Positions 18,104 through 25,882 of a stretch of 64,000 nucleotides of DNA are shown here, piece after piece. Under the pieces are notes generated by a model, which was not told where the DNA came from, did not search any database, and saw nothing but the letters and a program-made list of their open reading frames with translations. Positions within the stretch are counted from its first letter, which is position 1. Every line of letters starts with the position of its first letter. The translations under genes were made by a program, and so were the position numbers. This DNA is from Alkalibacterium thalassium (GTDB taxonomy: Bacteria > Bacillota > Bacilli > Lactobacillales > Carnobacteriaceae_A), in the NCBI RefSeq assembly GCF_900101165.1, contig NZ_FNFK01000006.1:1-64000 (forward strand), in the 5' to 3' direction.

Positions 18104-18682
18104 ATGAATAAGAAAGATTTATACTTAACTCTCTTTCGATCGACATTTTTTCTCAGCATGTTTACTTTCGGCGGAGGCTACGTTATCGTGCCACTGATGG
18201 AAAAGAAATTTGTGAATGAATTGGGATGGATCGATGAGGATGAAATGCTGAACCTGATCGCTATCGGACAGTCAGCGCCAGGGCCTATTGCTGTCAATAC
18301 ATCGATTCTGATCGGTTACCGTATGGCAGGATTTTCTGGTGCAATGGTCACGGTTCTGGGAACAATTCTCCCCCCATTAGGAATTATGACTGGCCTGGCA
18401 TATATTTATCTGGCTTTAAGAGATAATGCCTTAGTCAACAATGTGCTCCTAGGCATGCAGGCTGGGGTTGCAGCAATCATCGTAAATGTGGTCATAAACA
18501 TGGCTCTTCGAATCATTAAACAGAAGAAGATAGTGCCCGTACTGGTAATGATTGCGGCACTAATCGCCGGCATTGGCTTCCAGGTCAATATTTTGTGGCT
18601 GCTTTTTGTTTCGGCTCTTATTGGATTGATCATGACATTAATAGACTTAAAGAATAAACACGACAAGGGGGAGAGCAAATGA
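18104..18682 (+). CDS. chrA: Chromate transporter, N-terminal-type half
   Basis: A 192-residue single-domain CHR protein: FGGGYVIVPLMEK near residue 22, then IGQSAPGPIAVNTS near 56, and about six membrane helices. In Bacilli these short ChrA proteins are made as pairs that function together, probably as an antiparallel heterodimer, to export chromate or related oxyanions. The next gene overlaps by 4 bases and supplies the partner. GAAGGA precedes the ATG. It is divergent from the GT8-gor unit. Confidence 0.9.
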   Translation: MNKKDLYLTLFRSTFFLSMFTFGGGYVIVPLMEKKFVNELGWIDEDEMLNLIAIGQSAPGPIAVNTSILIGYRMAGFSGAMVTVLGTILPPLGIMTGLAYIYLALRDNALVNNVLLGMQAGVAAIIVNVVINMALRIIKQKKIVPVLVMIAALIAGIGFQVNILWLLFVSALIGLIMTLIDLKNKHDKGESK

Positions 18683-19245
18683 TTTACTTAGAACTCTTTC
18701 TCAGTTTTTTCCAGATTGGAATCCTCAGTTTTGGAGGAGGCTATGCTTCGCTGCCACTTATTGAACAGGAACTGATTACAGTTCAAGGCTGGATCACTAA
18801 CCAGCAGTTCATTGATATTTTGACATTATCAGAGATGACACCTGGCCCAATTGCCATTAATGCTGCAACTTTTTCCGGTAACCAGATTGCAGGAATCATG
18901 GGCGGAATCATTGCTACAATAGGTGTAACCTTACCGTCTGTCATAATTGTTCAACTTCTGGCATATTTCTACTTCAAGTATCAGAACCTGTCAATTGTTC
19001 AAGGTGTGATACAAGGTGTTCGTCCGGCAGTTGTCGCTCTGATTGCTTCTGCTGGTGTAACGATTTTCATGACAGCCATGTTTGGTCATAGCGACTGGCC
19101 GATCGTCCTTTCAGAAATCAACTGGGTTTCTGTCTTCTTCTTTGCAGCCGGGCTGTTTCTTATGAGAAAATTCAAGGCAAGCCCTATTCAGATTATTCTA
19201 GTGACTGGGGTAGCCGGAGGAATTGTCTACAGTCTTATTAAATAG
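18679..19245 (+). CDS. chrA: Chromate transporter, C-terminal-type half
   Basis: A 188-residue CHR-domain protein with FGGGYASLPLIEQE and LSEMTPGPIAINAATF, partner of the preceding gene. The ATG lies in the ATGA overlap, so the two halves should be made in equal amounts; GGGGGAG in the end of the first gene is the ribosome site. It is predicted to be a membrane transporter for chromate or another divalent oxyanion. A bidirectional terminator separates it from the convergent rnfC-rnfD pair. Confidence 0.9.
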   Translation: MIYLELFLSFFQIGILSFGGGYASLPLIEQELITVQGWITNQQFIDILTLSEMTPGPIAINAATFSGNQIAGIMGGIIATIGVTLPSVIIVQLLAYFYFKYQNLSIVQGVIQGVRPAVVALIASAGVTIFMTAMFGHSDWPIVLSEINWVSVFFFAAGLFLMRKFKASPIQIILVTGVAGGIVYSLIK

Positions 19246-19295: not shown

Positions 19296-19336
19296 AAAAA
19301 AAGCGTCAACGAGAGATATTCTCGCGGCGCTTTTTT
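19296..19336. terminator. Bidirectional terminator between chrA and rnfD
   Basis: An interrupted stem (GCGTCAACGAGA against TCTCGCGGCGC) is flanked by seven A on one side and six T on the other, serving both converging units. Confidence 0.8.
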
Positions 19337-19351
19337 GTTTATTTTATAGCA

Positions 19352-20380
19352 TTAGTTCGTGCTTTGACGATCGAATTTTGTTTGGGGACGGGTTTTGTGG
19401 CCGTAGATTCGTGGCATCAGCTTACTATCAATAAACGGTGCCAGGGCATTCATAATTAGGATCGAATACCCCACTCCACCCGGGTGGTCCAGTGTAATCC
19501 TGAACACAGCGGTCAACACACCACATCCGATAGCAAAAACAGTCTTCCCTTCTGGTGTTAGAGATCCTGAACTATAGTCAGTAGCCATATACGTGGCCCC
19601 GAAGAACAGAGTTCCTGTCAGAATGTGCGTCATTTGGAAATTCCAGTCAAAGCTGGACCATAATCCCATAACCACAAATGTTGTAAGGATATATAAAATC
19701 GGTACTTTTGGATTAATTACACGTCTGAAAATCAGATAAAGCATACCAATAAGTATTGCGAATTTAGAAGTTTCTCCAACATTTCCACCTAGATTAAATC
19801 CCATGAACAAATCGAATAGTCCAGGAACTTGTTCAGGCACGACCTGTGCCCCGTTACCGATAAACTCAAGCGGCGTGGCAGAACCTATAGCGTCGACCCC
19901 TCTGAATCCACTTCCCAGCAATCCACCGGGCAGGACCCAGTTAGCCAGCCAAGGAGTAAAGAGGGCCTTAATGACTACACGAGCAGCAACTGCAGGGTTG
20001 AAGTAGTTCCTTCCAATCCCACCATTAAGCTGCTTAACGATAACAATAGCAAAAATCGATCCAAACATGATCATCCATATTGGTGCAGTGACAGGCAAAC
20101 TTAAGGCGACCAGCATACCTGTTACTGCGGCACTGTGATCCTGTATTTTAATTGGTTTGTATGTCAGTTTCTGATAAATAAATTCAGATGCAACGGCTGT
20201 CCCAATACCAATTGCTACCATACCAAGGACCCACCATCCGAAGAAGAAGGTAGCCGCTAATGTTGGTGGAATCAGCGCGATTAAAACCTGGTCCATAACC
20301 CAAGCTGCTGTGCGTTTGCTGCGAACATGAGGTGAAGGACCGACTTGCAATTTACCTTTTACATCAATTGCCTGAGCCAT
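19352..20380 (-). CDS. rnfD: RnfD-like membrane electron-transfer subunit (copy 1)
   Basis: A 342-residue RnfD/NqrB-type membrane protein with about nine helices. Conserved elements include NGGIGRNYFNPAVAARVV (about 119-136), GETSKFAILIGMLYL (about 205), ATYMATDYSSGSLTP and GGVGYSILIMNALAPFID near the end. RnfD carries FMN covalently bound to a Thr in an S/T-G-A-T motif; here the matching segment is GSATPL with Thr169. It starts one base after the rnfC copy 1 stop. RnfA, RnfE, RnfG and RnfB are not encoded nearby, so this is not a standard Rnf complex. Its closest visible relative is copy 2 at 23236. Confidence 0.88.
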   Translation of the reverse strand: MAQAIDVKGKLQVGPSPHVRSKRTAAWVMDQVLIALIPPTLAATFFFGWWVLGMVAIGIGTAVASEFIYQKLTYKPIKIQDHSAAVTGMLVALSLPVTAPIWMIMFGSIFAIVIVKQLNGGIGRNYFNPAVAARVVIKALFTPWLANWVLPGGLLGSGFRGVDAIGSATPLEFIGNGAQVVPEQVPGLFDLFMGFNLGGNVGETSKFAILIGMLYLIFRRVINPKVPILYILTTFVVMGLWSSFDWNFQMTHILTGTLFFGATYMATDYSSGSLTPEGKTVFAIGCGVLTAVFRITLDHPGGVGYSILIMNALAPFIDSKLMPRIYGHKTRPQTKFDRQSTN

Positions 20381-20381
20381 C

Positions 20382-21710
20382 TTACTTCTCCTCCTTCGCT
20401 TTTATAGCAGCTTTAGCGGAACGAATATTTTCTAGAAGAGGAATTTTTGAAGGACAGATAAATGAACAGTTTCCACATTCGATACAGTCCATTGCCCCCA
20501 GCTCCTGAGCTTTATCAATATTTCCTCTTTCGAAAGCTTCACTGATAAGGATAGGTTGCAGACTGACCGGGCAGACATTTAGACATTCTGAACACATGAT
20601 ACAGTCGTGACTGTCCCCTTGTTCAGCTTCTTCAGGAGTCAGAACTGTTATAGCTGTCGTTCCTTTAATAATTGGAACCCCGAGATCCGAAACAGTTTTA
20701 CCCATCATCGGTCCACCACCCAGGACTTTTCCTGGTACGTCAGCAAATCCGCCGCAGTCTTCAATAAGCGAATCCATAGGAGTACCGATTTTAACTCGAA
20801 GGTTTTTAGGTTCTCTTATTGGTGTTCCGGACACTGATACAATACGTTCGATTAAAGGCTCGCCAAACTCGCAGGCGCGGTAGCAAGAACGGATCGTTGA
20901 TGTATTAGCCACGACACAGCGAACTTCAGCAGGAAGGCCACCAGGCGATACTTCTCTTCCAGTCATGCTCTTGATCAAGTTTTTCTCTGATCCTTGTGGA
21001 TACATTGTTTTCAATGGACGGACGAAAATATCGTCATATTCAGCAGAGGCTTCCTCAAGCGCCTTGATGGCATCCGGTTTATTATCCTCTACACCGATAT
21101 AGATGCGACGTAATTGAGGGAACAATGCTCTAGACAGATTAATTCCATGAATAATTTCATCTGCATGTTCCACCATGACTCTGTGGTCGGATGTAGAATA
21201 CGGTTCACACTCGGCCCCATTGATGATAAGTGTGTCAATCGTCATCCCCGGTGGAGGACTCAACTTAACAGCTGTAGGGAACGTTGCTCCACCCATTCCA
21301 ACGATTCCAGCTTTCCTGACTGTCTGAATGATTTCATCTTTTGACATGTCCTGAGACCGTCCTGGTTCGACGATTGGATCAGCTTTTGTATATTCATAGT
21401 CATTTTTGACAATGATACTGTCCACTTCTCCGCCACCGATTTTTCCACGTTTTTCTATAGCGATTACTTCACCTGAAACTGAAGAATATACATTTGCTGA
21501 TACAAATCCACCTTCTTCAGCAATCAGCTGACCGACCTTGACTGTCTCTCCAATTTCTACGACCGGTTTAGCAGGCGCTCCTATGTGCATGGATACGGGG
21601 TAAACCATGATTTTAGGGACTGATGCATCTACTATCGGTAACTTGCTCGTTCGTGATTTATTCTCTTCTGGATGGGAACCACCGTGTTTTCCCATGAACG
21701 AAAAACGCAT
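20382..21710 (-). CDS. rnfC: RnfC-like NADH/FMN iron-sulfur subunit (copy 1)
   Basis: A 442-residue RnfC homologue. The N-terminal region has a biotinyl/lipoyl-like fold (GAPAKPVVEIGETVKVGQLI). The NADH/FMN-binding Complex I 51-kDa-like core has GMGGATFPTAVKLSPP and INGAECEPYSTSDHRVM. An SLBB region follows, then two 4Fe-4S motifs: CIMCSECLNVCP and CIECGNCSFICP near residues 370-420. The ATG at 21710 is preferred over 21719 because AAAGGA abuts the first one and because copy 2 also begins MRF. It should take electrons from NADH on the cytoplasmic side and pass them to RnfD, encoded 1 base downstream. Confidence 0.9.
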   Translation of the reverse strand: MRFSFMGKHGGSHPEENKSRTSKLPIVDASVPKIMVYPVSMHIGAPAKPVVEIGETVKVGQLIAEEGGFVSANVYSSVSGEVIAIEKRGKIGGGEVDSIIVKNDYEYTKADPIVEPGRSQDMSKDEIIQTVRKAGIVGMGGATFPTAVKLSPPPGMTIDTLIINGAECEPYSTSDHRVMVEHADEIIHGINLSRALFPQLRRIYIGVEDNKPDAIKALEEASAEYDDIFVRPLKTMYPQGSEKNLIKSMTGREVSPGGLPAEVRCVVANTSTIRSCYRACEFGEPLIERIVSVSGTPIREPKNLRVKIGTPMDSLIEDCGGFADVPGKVLGGGPMMGKTVSDLGVPIIKGTTAITVLTPEEAEQGDSHDCIMCSECLNVCPVSLQPILISEAFERGNIDKAQELGAMDCIECGNCSFICPSKIPLLENIRSAKAAIKAKEEK

Positions 21711-21750
21711 CACATTCATCCTTTCTATAATTCCTGTCTAACCTAATTAC

Positions 21751-21792
21751 TTTTTTCACATACTTTCTTATAGTTATGTACATGTGAAAAAA
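21751..21792. repeat. Inverted repeat upstream of rnfC copy 1
   Basis: TTTTTTCACAT and ATGTGAAAAAA (11-bp perfect arms) enclose 20 bases, 41 bases upstream of the chosen rnfC start. It may be a leader hairpin or an operator. Confidence 0.6.
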
Positions 21793-21800
21793 CTGGTAGG

Positions 21801-21837
21801 TTCTGCTAATAATTTTAGTATACAATATGTAGCAGAA
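21801..21837. repeat. Inverted repeat enclosing a -10-like hexamer
   Basis: TTCTGCTA and TAGCAGAA (8-bp perfect arms) enclose 21 bases that include TATACT on the minus strand. This arrangement would suit a repressor site over the rnfC copy 1 promoter, but no strong -35 is seen. Confidence 0.5.
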
Positions 21838-21886
21838 AGATGAAAGTAATTCCATGTGATCTGTACAAATTCATTCTTGTATTTAT

Positions 21887-21916
21887 TTGTCAAACTAACG
21901 ATAATAGTGTTATAAA
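21887..21916 (+). promoter_or_regulatory. Probable SigA promoter of mgtC-like gene
   Basis: TTGTCA, 18 bases and TATAAA, about 20 bases before the TTG start. Confidence 0.55.
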
Positions 21917-21936
21917 AGTATGAGGGAGGAATCGGT

Positions 21937-22650
21937 TTGGAATTTACTCAGATAGAATTATTTTTAAGACTGATTCTCGCTGCAGTTGTCGGCGGGGTTA
22001 TTGGTTACGAACGAGAACTTAAGGGTCGCGATGCTGGGATACGCACCCATACTCTAGTAAGTCTGGGTGCAGCGATCATTACGATGACGCAACTGGAAGC
22101 CAGCAGATGGGTCTTGAACTTTGCCATGGACAACCCCGATTTTTCAACAATATTATCAACCGACATTACTCGTCTTACCGCTCAGATTGTCAACGGGATT
22201 GGATTCCTGGGCGCAGGAACAATTATTGTAAGTAGACGGACAGTGACTGGACTGACAACGGCTGCTTCAATATGGGCTGTAGCAAGTTTAGGTATTGCCG
22301 TGGGTATGGGTTATTATTTCATGGCAATCACAAGTACATTTATCATGCTGATCGTTTTGCGTCTGCTTAAAGGATTATTCAAGATCGACAGTACTAAACA
22401 ACTGGAGATTCAGTATAAAAATAGAGATGCTACACTTGCTTATCTAATGGAAACTTTTAAAGCAAACAATATCACTGTTGTTTCAACAGATCATTCTATT
22501 ACCTATTTGGAAGACGGAAGTTCACTTTGTGAAGATATGTATACATTGAACCTTCCCGCACAGTTTAACATGATACATTTCATATCTCAGGTTGGTGATT
22601 ATGAAGACATTCTTAAGATCAATACCATCAAAACTACACCAGACAATTAA
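21937..22650 (+). CDS. MgtC/SapB family membrane protein
   Basis: A 237-residue protein. Four to five helices in the first 145 residues carry the MgtC signature GYERELKGRDAGIRTHTLVSLGAA (residues 23-46) and NGIGFLGAGTIIV (about 87). A cytoplasmic ACT-like C-terminal domain follows. It starts at TTG 21937, 6 bases after GGGAGGA. MgtC proteins are linked to growth at low magnesium and to membrane potential or ATP synthase control rather than to magnesium transport itself. It is divergent from rnfC copy 1, and a terminator follows. Confidence 0.88.
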   Translation: MEFTQIELFLRLILAAVVGGVIGYERELKGRDAGIRTHTLVSLGAAIITMTQLEASRWVLNFAMDNPDFSTILSTDITRLTAQIVNGIGFLGAGTIIVSRRTVTGLTTAASIWAVASLGIAVGMGYYFMAITSTFIMLIVLRLLKGLFKIDSTKQLEIQYKNRDATLAYLMETFKANNITVVSTDHSITYLEDGSSLCEDMYTLNLPAQFNMIHFISQVGDYEDILKINTIKTTPDN

Positions 22651-22652
22651 GG

Positions 22653-22707
22653 AAAAGCAATAAAGATGTCAGTTGTCGCTAACAAGCTGACTTATCTTTA
22701 TTGCTTT
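22653..22707. terminator. Bidirectional terminator between mgtC-like gene and lipoprotein
   Basis: AAAGCAATAAAGAT pairs with ATCTTTATTGCTTT with extra inner pairing. A TATCTTTTT stretch follows on the plus strand. Confidence 0.75.
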
Positions 22708-22713
22708 ATCTTT

Positions 22714-23142
22714 TTATTCCACAGTAAACTCGGCAGTCAGCACTTCTCCTTCGATCTGTCTGACGACTCTGTACTCACCTGGTTCGAAGGGCTCATAGTA
22801 ATGCATGTTCAGTTCGTCTTCTGCCTCTTCTCCCGGACCCAGTATATGGGCAATCATAATAAATGACATCTCTTCCTCTGGTTCAACGGTTATCCACTGG
22901 TTCCCTTCCTGCTTTTCGACAGTGAATGCAATGCCATAGCTTATCTCTTCTTCAGACTGATTCGACACAGTAAGAATGAATGTCTCTCCTTCTGAATCAT
23001 ACACTTCCTGATTCAAGCTTATAGATACACCGTCCAATGTATCCACTTCTTCAAACGGTGACGGTTCTCCTGTATCTCCGCACCCGCTTAAAACCATTCC
23101 AATGATAAAAACTGCTCCTGCTGCAAGTGTTTTTTTCAGCAT
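22714..23142 (-). CDS. Lipoprotein with bacterial Ig-like domain
   Basis: A 142-residue lipoprotein: MLKK start, hydrophobic core, lipobox VLSGC with Cys21. The rest resembles the Ig-like (Big_14-type) fold of secreted Firmicute lipoproteins, with NQEVYDSEGETFILTVSN and the ending YYEPFEPGEYRVVRQIEG. The ATG at 23142 is preferred; a GTG at 23151 abuts the AAAGGG site. It is highly acidic. The gene lies between the two rnf pairs but ends its own unit. The function is unknown; a link to the Rnf proteins is only positional. Confidence 0.8.
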   Translation of the reverse strand: MLKKTLAAGAVFIIGMVLSGCGDTGEPSPFEEVDTLDGVSISLNQEVYDSEGETFILTVSNQSEEEISYGIAFTVEKQEGNQWITVEPEEEMSFIMIAHILGPGEEAEDELNMHYYEPFEPGEYRVVRQIEGEVLTAEFTVE

Positions 23143-23191
23143 ACTTAGCACACCCTTTTCTATTTTCTTAAGTATACTCTGAATAATACGT

Positions 23192-23226
23192 AAAAAAAAA
23201 CGGCCGGATCATTTTCCAGCCGTTTT
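23192..23226 (-). terminator. Terminator of rnf pair 2
   Basis: AAAACGGC pairs with GCCGTTTT, extended by CGG/CCA partial pairing, then a run of nine T on the minus strand. Confidence 0.85.
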
Positions 23227-23235
23227 ATTATCTAC

Positions 23236-24336
23236 TCAATTGTCTGTCAGCACGTCACGCTTGGTAAGCGGCTCTGTCAGATCATAATCCGGATGAACTC
23301 CGGGACGTTTCTTGTGACCGTAAATGCGCGGCATAACCAGTTTGTCTACAAATGGAATGATCGCATTCATAATAAGTATTGAGAAGCCAACCCCTTCAGG
23401 TGAAAAATTTCCAATTCTGAAAGCCGCAGTAATGATGCCAGCGCCGATCGGAAATACCGTTCGACCAAGAGGAGTCAGGCCACCTGAAGCATAATCCGTG
23501 ACCATGAAAGTTCCTGCCAGAAGCAAGGCTCCACTTAGAATGTGATACATCATGAATTCGAAATCAAATCCTGAGTAAACCAGCATGATCAGAGCAACTG
23601 TTCCGATATACATTGCCGGTATCTTAGGATTGATAATGCGTCGGAAGATCAGAAACGCCATGGCGATGAGTAATGCGATTGCACTTGTTTCACCAAGAGA
23701 CCCGCCCCATCCACCTTGATTTCCCAGGAACATATTCCAAAGCGTCTGCGCGCCGTCCGGTACTTCCTGCGCACCACTTGCAATGTAGAACAAGGGTGTT
23801 GCAGCAGCAACAAGGTCATCTGGAGTTGCAGTTGTAATAGCTTCTGCCTGACTTGCTGTGGTTATTATATCTTCTCCTGCAACAAATGTATTTACAATCC
23901 AAGGTGCCATCAAATACACGACACGTCCGCCTACAGCGGGATTGAACCGGTTTCTGCCGATTCCACCCGGAATCATCTTGACAACAATAATCGCGAATAG
24001 ACTGACAATAATAATACTGAACCATTGGGCACCGTTTGGCATACTTAAACCAATAAGCATACCTGTAACTACTGCTGATAAATCGGTCACAGTTACACGT
24101 TTTCTAACAATTTTTTCGTACAGGTACTCACTGATCACACACGTGATCACAGCAAGAACAGTAAGATAAAGTGTCTGGAATCCGAAGAAGTAGACACCCG
24201 CTGCCAACGGAAACAGCATGGCAATAATAACTTGCAGCATGATCCACTGTGATGACCATTTTTCAAATATGTGCGGTGAGTTGTCCAGCACTAAATCGTA
24301 ATCGGCCAAGGTGGTTTTTGTTTTATTCGTACTCAT
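23236..24336 (-). CDS. rnfD: RnfD-like membrane electron-transfer subunit (copy 2)
   Basis: A 366-residue paralogue of the protein at 19352, sharing PGGIGRNRFNPAVGGRVVY (about 123-141), GGSLGETSAIALLIAMAFL and GVGFSILIMNAIIPFVDKL. It has an insertion of about 16-20 residues before the flavin-site segment, which reads AAATPLFY with Thr180. The first residue of the usual S/T-G-A-T motif is Ala here, so covalent flavinylation needs testing; a second Thr at 171 (TTATP) is nearby. It starts 2 bases after rnfC copy 2. It belongs to the same incomplete Rnf arrangement as copy 1. Confidence 0.88.
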   Translation of the reverse strand: MSTNKTKTTLADYDLVLDNSPHIFEKWSSQWIMLQVIIAMLFPLAAGVYFFGFQTLYLTVLAVITCVISEYLYEKIVRKRVTVTDLSAVVTGMLIGLSMPNGAQWFSIIIVSLFAIIVVKMIPGGIGRNRFNPAVGGRVVYLMAPWIVNTFVAGEDIITTASQAEAITTATPDDLVAAATPLFYIASGAQEVPDGAQTLWNMFLGNQGGWGGSLGETSAIALLIAMAFLIFRRIINPKIPAMYIGTVALIMLVYSGFDFEFMMYHILSGALLLAGTFMVTDYASGGLTPLGRTVFPIGAGIITAAFRIGNFSPEGVGFSILIMNAIIPFVDKLVMPRIYGHKKRPGVHPDYDLTEPLTKRDVLTDN

Positions 24337-24338
24337 TC

Positions 24339-25652
24339 CTACACCGCCTTTGCATTCTGTCTGATAACCGTTTTAGCTTTTCTTATGTTGTCTAGTAAAG
24401 GAATCTTGGACGGACAGATATATGAACAGTTTCCGCATTCAATACAGTCCATAGCTCCAAGCTGTGCTGCTTTTTCGATATCTCCCCGCTCGTAAGCATT
24501 ACTGATAAGTATAGGCTGTAAGCTTACAGGACAGACGTTAATACATTCTGAACAGCGGATACAATCCATACGTTCTTCATCATCGACTTCTTCTGCAGTA
24601 AGGAATGTCACATGAGTGGTCCCTTTTGAGATAGGAATCGCTCCGTCTTTGATGGTTTTCCCCATCATAGGCCCACCGTGAATCACTTTACGTGGTGCTT
24701 CCTGGAAGCCACCACAAAAATCAATCACGTCATCAATCGGTGTACCCAGACGTACAAGCAGGTTTTTAGGGTCGGCAATTGGTGTCCCTGAAATCGTGCA
24801 GACACGTTCTACCATAGGTTTACCTAAGCGTACCGCACGGTATATCATCTGAAATGTCCCAACATTGGATACGACACAACCGATATCAGCTGGCAGGCCG
24901 CCTGCAGGCACTTGACGTCCTGTACAGTTCTCGATCAACTGCTTTTCAGATCCTTGAGGATATTTAGCTTCAAGGACTTTGATCTCAACTTTATCGTAGC
25001 CCTCAGCTGCTTTTTTCAGTGCTTCTCCAGCTTCTTTAGCATTGTCTTCGATACCAATGACTACTCTGTCAACGTTGAAGACTGAATCGATCACGCGGAC
25101 ACCTTCAATAATTTCGTCTGCATATTCGATCATCGTACGCAGGTCAGATGTAGAATACGGCTCGCATTCTGCTCCGTTAAGAATAAGCGTGTCGATTTTC
25201 TTGTCTTTAGGCGGTGACATTTTTACGTTAGTCGGGAATGTCGCTCCTCCCATTCCGGAAATACCGGCTCTTTTGATCAGTTCAGGAACAAATGCCGGAT
25301 CCACATTATCTCCTGCTTCCGGAAACGGCGGTTCTTCTGTGTATTCTCCATCATTTTTTATGATGACACATGTGTAGACATCACTGAGTACATCACGTTC
25401 TTCAATAGAAATGACTTCCCCACTTACTGATGACAGAACATTTGCAGAAATGAAGCCTTGAGCTTCCCCCAACAAGGTTCCCACCTTCACTTTGTCGCCC
25501 ACTTCCACTACTGGTTTGGCCGGAGCACCCAAGTGCATGGACATCGGGAAAACCATGATAGTCGGTGCATCTATTTTTTCAATTGCCTTATGGTGTGTAC
25601 GCGATTTATTATGTTTAGGATATGTGGCTTTTTGTACTGTTTTGAAGCGCAT
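24339..25652 (-). CDS. rnfC: RnfC-like NADH/FMN iron-sulfur subunit (copy 2)
   Basis: A 437-residue RnfC homologue clearly paralogous to copy 1: MHLGAPAKPVVEVGDKVKV, GMGGATFPTNVKMSPP, LNGAECEPYSTSDLRTM, and two 4Fe-4S motifs CIRCSECINVCP and CIECGNCSYICP. GAGGAGGAAAGGG lies before the ATG. It should oxidise NADH through bound FMN and hand electrons to its RnfD partner. The 588-base region upstream holds two promoter-like sequences and palindromes, so this copy is likely regulated separately from copy 1. Confidence 0.9.
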   Translation of the reverse strand: MRFKTVQKATYPKHNKSRTHHKAIEKIDAPTIMVFPMSMHLGAPAKPVVEVGDKVKVGTLLGEAQGFISANVLSSVSGEVISIEERDVLSDVYTCVIIKNDGEYTEEPPFPEAGDNVDPAFVPELIKRAGISGMGGATFPTNVKMSPPKDKKIDTLILNGAECEPYSTSDLRTMIEYADEIIEGVRVIDSVFNVDRVVIGIEDNAKEAGEALKKAAEGYDKVEIKVLEAKYPQGSEKQLIENCTGRQVPAGGLPADIGCVVSNVGTFQMIYRAVRLGKPMVERVCTISGTPIADPKNLLVRLGTPIDDVIDFCGGFQEAPRKVIHGGPMMGKTIKDGAIPISKGTTHVTFLTAEEVDDEERMDCIRCSECINVCPVSLQPILISNAYERGDIEKAAQLGAMDCIECGNCSYICPSKIPLLDNIRKAKTVIRQNAKAV

Positions 25653-25732: not shown

Positions 25733-25750
25733 ATTATAATAATTTCACAA
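25733..25750 (-). promoter_or_regulatory. Possible proximal promoter element of rnfC copy 2
   Basis: TATAAT (25738-25733 on the minus strand) lies about 80 bases upstream of the start codon. TTGTGAAAT just upstream (25750-25742) resembles one half of a Rex (NADH-sensing repressor) site. The other half and a good -35 are not seen. Confidence 0.35.
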
Positions 25751-25852
25751 TAATTTTCATGAGTCTATCGCTACATCATCTGACTTAAGAATAACGAATT
25801 ATACATAAAAAGTAAAGTAACATCGGGCTTCTTACATTTATTATGTCCAAAA

Positions 25853-25882
25853 ATATTACAAATGAAAATGGTTCTCATTCAA
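25853..25882 (-). promoter_or_regulatory. Promoter with Fur-box-like palindrome upstream of rnfC copy 2
   Basis: On the minus strand TTGAAT (25882-25877), an 18-base spacer and TAATAT (25858-25853) form a SigA-like promoter. The 19-base near-palindrome AATGAAAATGGTTCTCATT (25861-25879) fills the spacer. It matches 11 of 14 defined positions of the 7-1-7 Fur consensus TGATAAT-N-ATTATCA. The start codon is about 200 bases away, so a long leader is implied. Confidence 0.45.

Follow-up and report, generated by a model that had tools for sequence, protein, structure and literature searches.

The 64,000-nucleotide stretch of Alkalibacterium thalassium DNA analysed here (hereafter the window) carries two gene pairs, each consisting of rnfC followed by rnfD, which encode the NADH-side half of the Rnf complex (RnfABCDEG, ferredoxin:NAD+ oxidoreductase). 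Descriptions of Rnf usually give it six subunits, and structures have been solved as 9eri, 7zc6, and 8ahx. Both pairs are intact, are encoded on the minus strand, and span positions 19352-25652. This half of Rnf is a genuine and conserved arrangement about which little has been written, and its two copies are ancient paralogues whose regulation is predicted to differ; the literature searched gave no description of RnfCD standing alone. We favour, with some reserve, the reading that each pair functions as a stand-alone, one-way electron exporter, with pair 2 serving iron and pair 1 serving electron disposal.

Two intact rnfC-rnfD pairs

The initial annotation described two paralogous rnfC-rnfD pairs with gaps of 1-2 bases, and both the coordinates and the family scores agree with it. 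In pair 1, rnfC1 (20382-21719, minus strand) is separated by 1 base from rnfD1 (19352-20380, minus strand), while the gap between rnfC2 (24339-25652, minus strand) and rnfD2 (23236-24336, minus strand) in pair 2 is 2 bases. RnfC1 and RnfC2, the NADH/flavin mononucleotide (FMN) and 2x[4Fe-4S] subunits, scored 508.7 and 515.1 bits to TIGR01945 and share 56% identity; RnfC2 was resolved into Complex1_51K, RnfC_N, SLBB, and Fer4 domains. The membrane flavin subunits RnfD1 and RnfD2 scored 264.8 and 241.1 bits (TIGR01946 for RnfD2). All four scores exceed the NCBIfam cut-offs (245.95 bits for rnfC, 207.05 bits for rnfD), and the four proteins also clear the curated Pfam cut-offs, in each case by a wide margin. 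Both RnfDs consist of PF03116 alone (5.5e-90 for RnfD1, 2.3e-83 for RnfD2), without a fused PF00175 NAD domain. Profiles built from 61-66 complete rnf operons detected no RnfA, RnfE, or RnfG in the window, and the only RnfB matches there were weak and all corresponded to the ferredoxin tails of the two RnfCs, which bears out the earlier statement that rnfA, rnfB, rnfE, and rnfG are absent from the 64 kb.

The nearest solved relative of RnfC1 is chain C of 7zc6, with an end-to-end alignment (E 8.5e-124) in which the eight cysteines serving the two [4Fe-4S] clusters, GxGGAxFP, and ECEP are all retained. RnfD1 is closest to chain D of 9eri (E 6.2e-68) and also aligns with the RnfD of 7zc6. The flavinylation threonine is present in the RnfD of all pairs, and flavin attachment to it is predicted from sequence. 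This invariant residue lies within DAIGSATPL in RnfD1 and DLVAAATPL in RnfD2, whose GSATP and AAATP motifs fit the range of complete Rnf, where TATP, SATP, and GATP are common. Loss of NADH/FMN function in both RnfC copies had been named as a refuting outcome; the NADH, FMN, iron-sulfur, and flavinylation residues are all intact. The loop preceding the threonine is longer in the window's genus (36-45 residues versus a median of 29), although it was rejected as a mark of half pairs because not every half pair has it. The ratio of nonsynonymous to synonymous substitution (dN/dS) against a congener is 0.02-0.2 for all four genes, which are under purifying selection.

Each pair is a two-gene unit. 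An intrinsic terminator (23197-23226, minus strand), composed of a 12-pair stem and a T tail, lies directly 3' of rnfD2 and therefore delimits rnfC2-rnfD2 clearly. An inverted repeat with A/T flanks was read in the sequence at 19300-19336, between chrB and rnfD1, and is probably a two-way terminator shared by these genes.

Spread, duplication, and predicted upstream control

RnfD was found in 27 of 148 relatives, which together hold 40 rnfC-rnfD pairs, and 38 of these have no rnfA, rnfB, rnfE, or rnfG alongside in the fetched neighbourhoods. An arrangement met with 38 times in 27 genomes goes well beyond what chance would give. The remaining two pairs belong to complete rnfCDGEAB operons (G063, G104), and both genomes also possess an extra bare pair. 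Class-wide, RnfD matches occurred in seven of 399 genomes, with strong matches confined to the window's order. Among the 80 best relatives outside the group, nearly all belong to complete operons, and the exceptions are contig-end cuts and lone RnfC-like proteins.

In a tree of joined RnfC and RnfD, the pair-1 and pair-2 sequences fell into separate clades, both of which have a support of 1.00 and contain the genera g1 (that of the window), g6, and g8. The duplication therefore predates those genera, and on this phylogeny the two pairs are ancient paralogues; G018 still has both pairs in tandem, arranged as they are in the window. The pairs of Enterococcaceae form a clade of their own, closest to complete Rnf sequences from the same order (support 0.74), and for this reason the reduction to rnfCD may have happened twice.

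In five Enterococcaceae genomes (L036, L039-L042), a gene encoding a membrane protein of 188-193 residues directly follows rnfD. Its product has no Pfam match, and profile-profile comparison with RnfA/E gave a weak result. When its profile was searched against the genomes, it recovered its own family and the RnfA of both genomes with complete Rnf (1.1e-6 and 3.2e-5), no RnfA in the other relatives, and no family member in the window's genome. The tail of the protein shares the RnfA pattern ERLxxxxIPxxLQGxPI, yet the positions that bear the cluster in RnfA carry no conserved cysteine. The protein is read as a remote relative of RnfA, a putative scaffold minus its iron-sulfur cluster; such a loss of cysteines would be expected once the iron-sulfur entry route had been dismantled.

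The existence of two relatives with a full rnf operon plus an extra pair could suggest that the pairs in the window supply spare subunits to a complete Rnf at another locus of the genome. However, the genome carrying the window (2.36 Mb, 99.1% complete, 124 contigs) gave no RnfA/E match above the family cut-off and no intact RnfG-type FMN_bind protein in a search that did not extend to RnfB, and the RnfA-like profile found RnfA in just the two complete-Rnf relatives. We regard spare subunits as highly improbable. One sub-cut-off match to RnfA/E in this genome was rejected, being the LrgB of an LrgAB pair.

When the region upstream of rnfC2 was aligned across nine congeners, the best-conserved block was a palindrome followed by a promoter-like stretch. 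The palindrome is a Fur-box-like site, TGAAAATGGTTCTCA, located at 25863-25877 about 210 bases upstream of rnfC2, and it occupies the aligned place in 9/9 congeners. Compared with the Fur consensus TGATAATNATTATCA, the copy of G010, TGATAATCATTATCA, matches at 14/14 positions and those of two other congeners at 13/14. A scan of 449 kb from the genus gave three matches to the Fur box of at least 13/14, every one upstream of rnfC2; a relaxed motif gave 12 places, nine of which are likewise upstream of rnfC2, one per genome. No Fur-box-like site is present upstream of rnfC1. Pair 2 is thus predicted to be under Fur-type control through this putative operator, and we propose that pair 1 is constitutive or otherwise regulated. 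The initial annotation took two diverged copies to suggest separate partners or conditions, and the two tree clades and a site present in pair 2 but not in pair 1 are evidence for separate roles.

A second conserved element, TTGTGAAATTATTAT (25737-25752, minus strand), is situated between the promoter region and rnfC2, and its TGTGAAA is invariant in nine congeners. A TGTGAAA-like element is also found upstream of rnfC1 at about 21750-21800, and the two possibly respond to a shared regulator. They bear a half-site likeness to Rex/CRP operators, but no standard operator is formed and this assignment was rejected. In G018 (L055), which belongs to another genus, the pair-1 rnfC is preceded at a distance of about 200 bases by TTATAATGATTATAA, which matches the PerR-type box exactly.

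That the pairs are remnants in decay, left over from a former Rnf complex, might be argued from the tree, where half-pair branches are longer than those of canonical sequences. We consider decay very improbable, since frames and cofactor residues are intact in 38 pairs, purifying selection is strong, operators are conserved, and the pairs have been retained since before the split of g1, g6, and g8.

Candidate electron route and acceptors

According to current descriptions, Rnf passes electrons from ferredoxin through RnfB, the [2Fe-2S] cluster of RnfA/E, the FMN of RnfG, the FMN and riboflavin of RnfD, and RnfC to NAD+ (PMC12174285). The half pairs are orthologous to RnfC and RnfD in sequence, cofactor residues, and CD order; unlike Rnf, they have no RnfA, RnfE, or RnfG (in the window no RnfB either), leaving no ferredoxin entry, [2Fe-2S] step, or RnfG flavin. 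RnfC and RnfD alone would represent the NADH end and the outer flavin of Rnf, and running in reverse would make them an NADH-driven export route. RnfC would oxidize NADH with FMN and hand the electrons over two [4Fe-4S] clusters to RnfD, where they would cross the membrane via riboflavin and an outer-face FMN attached by ApbE to the conserved threonine. Ferric chelates, free flavins, quinone-like shuttles, and dyes may serve as small acceptors outside, together with an FMN_bind lipoprotein where one exists. The ferredoxin entry half (RnfB, the [2Fe-2S] RnfA/E, and RnfG) appears to have been lost, and therefore no ferredoxin-NAD+ coupling, and probably no pumping, would be expected. Pair 2 most likely functions in reductive iron acquisition and pair 1 most likely in electron disposal of the extracellular electron transfer (EET) type. 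In a sharper version, which we put forward tentatively and as having somewhat more against it than for it, RnfC2-RnfD2 would be a Fur-controlled transmembrane NADH:ferric (or flavin) reductase of two proteins, derived from half of an ion pump and working without an extracytosolic flavoprotein, RnfC1-RnfD1 would be a second exporter under different regulation and the basis of extracellular dye reduction in this group, and some Enterococcaceae would have kept a decayed, cluster-free RnfA as scaffold.

Previous studies described NQR/RNF-like systems, mainly actinobacterial and from the candidate phyla radiation, in which an RnfD-like domain lacking the RnfD threonine is fused to an NqrF-type NAD domain and accompanied by an FMN_bind subunit; iron assimilation was suggested for some of them (Meheust 2021, PMC8238504; Huang 2024, PMC11334425). 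The initial annotation likened the pairs to such minimal flavinylation-linked systems. The analogy holds insofar as both would offer a one-way route from NAD(P)H to the outside built on an NqrB/RnfD relative, whereas the make-up differs: here RnfC is separate, the threonine is kept, and the gene content demands no FMN_bind protein. Moreover, NQR/RNF-like systems cluster with an FMN_bind or ApbE gene (PMC8238504), which the window pairs do not. By its definition the rnfCD pairs fall outside that family, although the principle appears to be the same.

The genome carrying the window encodes one ApbE flavin transferase, a lipoprotein, on a contig other than that of the pairs and adjoining an EetB-type Hpre_diP_synt_I gene. 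Searching for further flavinylation motifs with the pattern D-x-[ST]-G-A-[ST] returned unrelated proteins or out-of-frame matches only. No FMN_bind gene lies near either rnfCD pair, and the domain search of the genome found just one 25-residue piece. A Marinilactibacillus lipoprotein used as query recovered two pieces at the ends of two contigs (G000 C118:1-460, L186, and C94:9600-9790, L148), which together form a PplA-like FMN_bind lipoprotein pseudogene. Relative to the intact 162-residue congener orthologue, it has lost the start and signal-peptide region, contains an internal TAA stop, and is split by the insertion of an IS200/IS605-type (TnpB) element; orthologues without stops occur in G003, G007, G009, and G011. 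The genome yielded no other FMN_bind gene, so its two intact rnfCD pairs coexist with a broken one. A second, short FMN_bind type (129-161 residues, motif TGST) was observed in G004 (L147:9385-9774), where it directly precedes a flavodoxin-like gene, and in G010 (L146:12233-12716); these are the two congeners lacking UbiA.

These data bear on a split arrangement of the kind seen in flavinylation-based EET, in which RnfCD would supply the membrane half and an unlinked PplA-like or RnfG-like FMN_bind lipoprotein would be its obligatory acceptor. An FMN_bind match is present in 24 of the 27 RnfD genomes, counting the broken gene of the window's genome, and is missing from the three RnfD-free congeners G001, G002, and G008. 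In G016, eetA (NusG_II), prs, glmU, and then pair 1 occur in direct succession on one strand, and the same eetA-prs-glmU block flanks the ndh2-pplA-apbE-ubiA EET locus of Marinilactibacillus. The pairs of the window are nevertheless intact and selected despite three lesions in the only FMN_bind gene, and G005, G006, and G035 have rnfCD and no FMN_bind match. We hold an obligatory lipoprotein to be unlikely, and the extracytosolic flavoprotein partner envisaged by the initial annotation lacks support as a requirement. As for Gram-positive EET (Ndh2, PplA, FmnB/ApbE, EetA, EetB, and demethylmenaquinone), the likeness extends to the ApbE and EetB-like genes and, in one relative, to eetA beside pair 1; the Listeria-type system differs in that entry here would be through RnfC rather than Ndh2, and the PplA homologue is broken.

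A simplified NQR, in which RnfCD acts as an NADH:quinone reductase and RnfD delivers electrons to (demethyl)menaquinone, would agree with the homology of RnfD to NqrB and with the UbiA enzyme gene adjoining a polyprenyl synthase gene in the window's genome. NqrA is likewise homologous to RnfC; in contrast, NqrA is cofactor-free, and Na+-NQR requires six subunits and a quinone. Cytochrome bd was absent from the 27 family genomes examined, and no UbiA prenyltransferase was found in G004, G010, G016, and G018, which hold one or two rnfCD pairs. A dedicated quinone reductase is, in our estimate, distinctly unlikely. Since four pair-bearing genomes have no UbiA and three have no FMN_bind match, neither endogenous quinone nor an FMN_bind protein is a universal requirement. 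Genomes lacking both account for 0/20 of those with rnfCD versus 11/40 of those without (p 0.011, uncorrected for kinship), which fits electron delivery to whichever extracytosolic or membrane acceptor is available.

The stand-alone exporter that we favour builds on computed properties, namely gene content, intact cofactor residues, the lack of RnfA/E and of any undamaged FMN_bind protein, the ancient duplication, purifying selection, and the conserved operator. Covalent FMN on RnfD, the outward direction, the acceptor, and the link of pair 2 to iron are inferred from these, and several points count against the proposal. Activity and topology are predicted; the assembly is fragmented; and the RnfB search covered the window and the fetched loci, not the whole genome. 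The presence of ApbE is no proof that it acts on RnfD, because the RnfD-free congeners G001, G002, and G008 keep ApbE too. The same 0/20 versus 11/40 makes quinone or flavoprotein acceptors possible, and the window copy of the Fur-box-like site, TGAGAACCATTTTCA, reaches 11/14 to the consensus.

Alkalibacterium species reduce indigo (PMC12501876), and an indigo community study reported that A. pelagium has no PplA (PMC10572741). In that study, predicted RnfC abundance, 84% of which was assigned to Alkalibacterium, correlated at 0.93 with dyeing, these abundances being 16S-predicted rather than measured, and RnfC was taken as a component of the ferredoxin:NAD+ pump (PMC10572741). Our results suggest that the Alkalibacterium RnfC is not part of such a pump and that rnfCD is a candidate for the missing reductase. 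Annotation pipelines take a lone RnfC or RnfD as a sign of the pump, and function predictions based on RnfC abundance, as in PMC10572741, may mislead for this group, in which half of Rnf has been retained, duplicated, brought under predicted iron-type control, and preserved across 27 genomes. If the exporter reading is true, the pairs would provide a simple route from NADH to the outside in fermenters without cytochrome bd, a candidate explanation for dye and iron reduction by alkaliphilic indigo-vat bacteria, and a natural experiment on which parts of Rnf are enough to carry electrons across the membrane.

Neighbouring genes

A chromate-transporter-family pair, chrA-chrB (18104-19245, plus strand; PF02417), is convergent with rnfC1-rnfD1. 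Convergence of a chr pair with rnfCD was found in two families (L040-L042, L044, L046-L048, L053, L055-L061, L063, and L064), and in three Enterococcaceae genomes it involves a different rnfCD clade. MgtC (21937-22650) was rejected as an operon partner of rnfCD, being encoded on the opposite strand. The Big_14 lipoprotein downstream of rnfD2 (22714-23151) was likewise rejected as a partner of pair 2, given the terminator in between; it is present in nearly all congeners and evolves fast.

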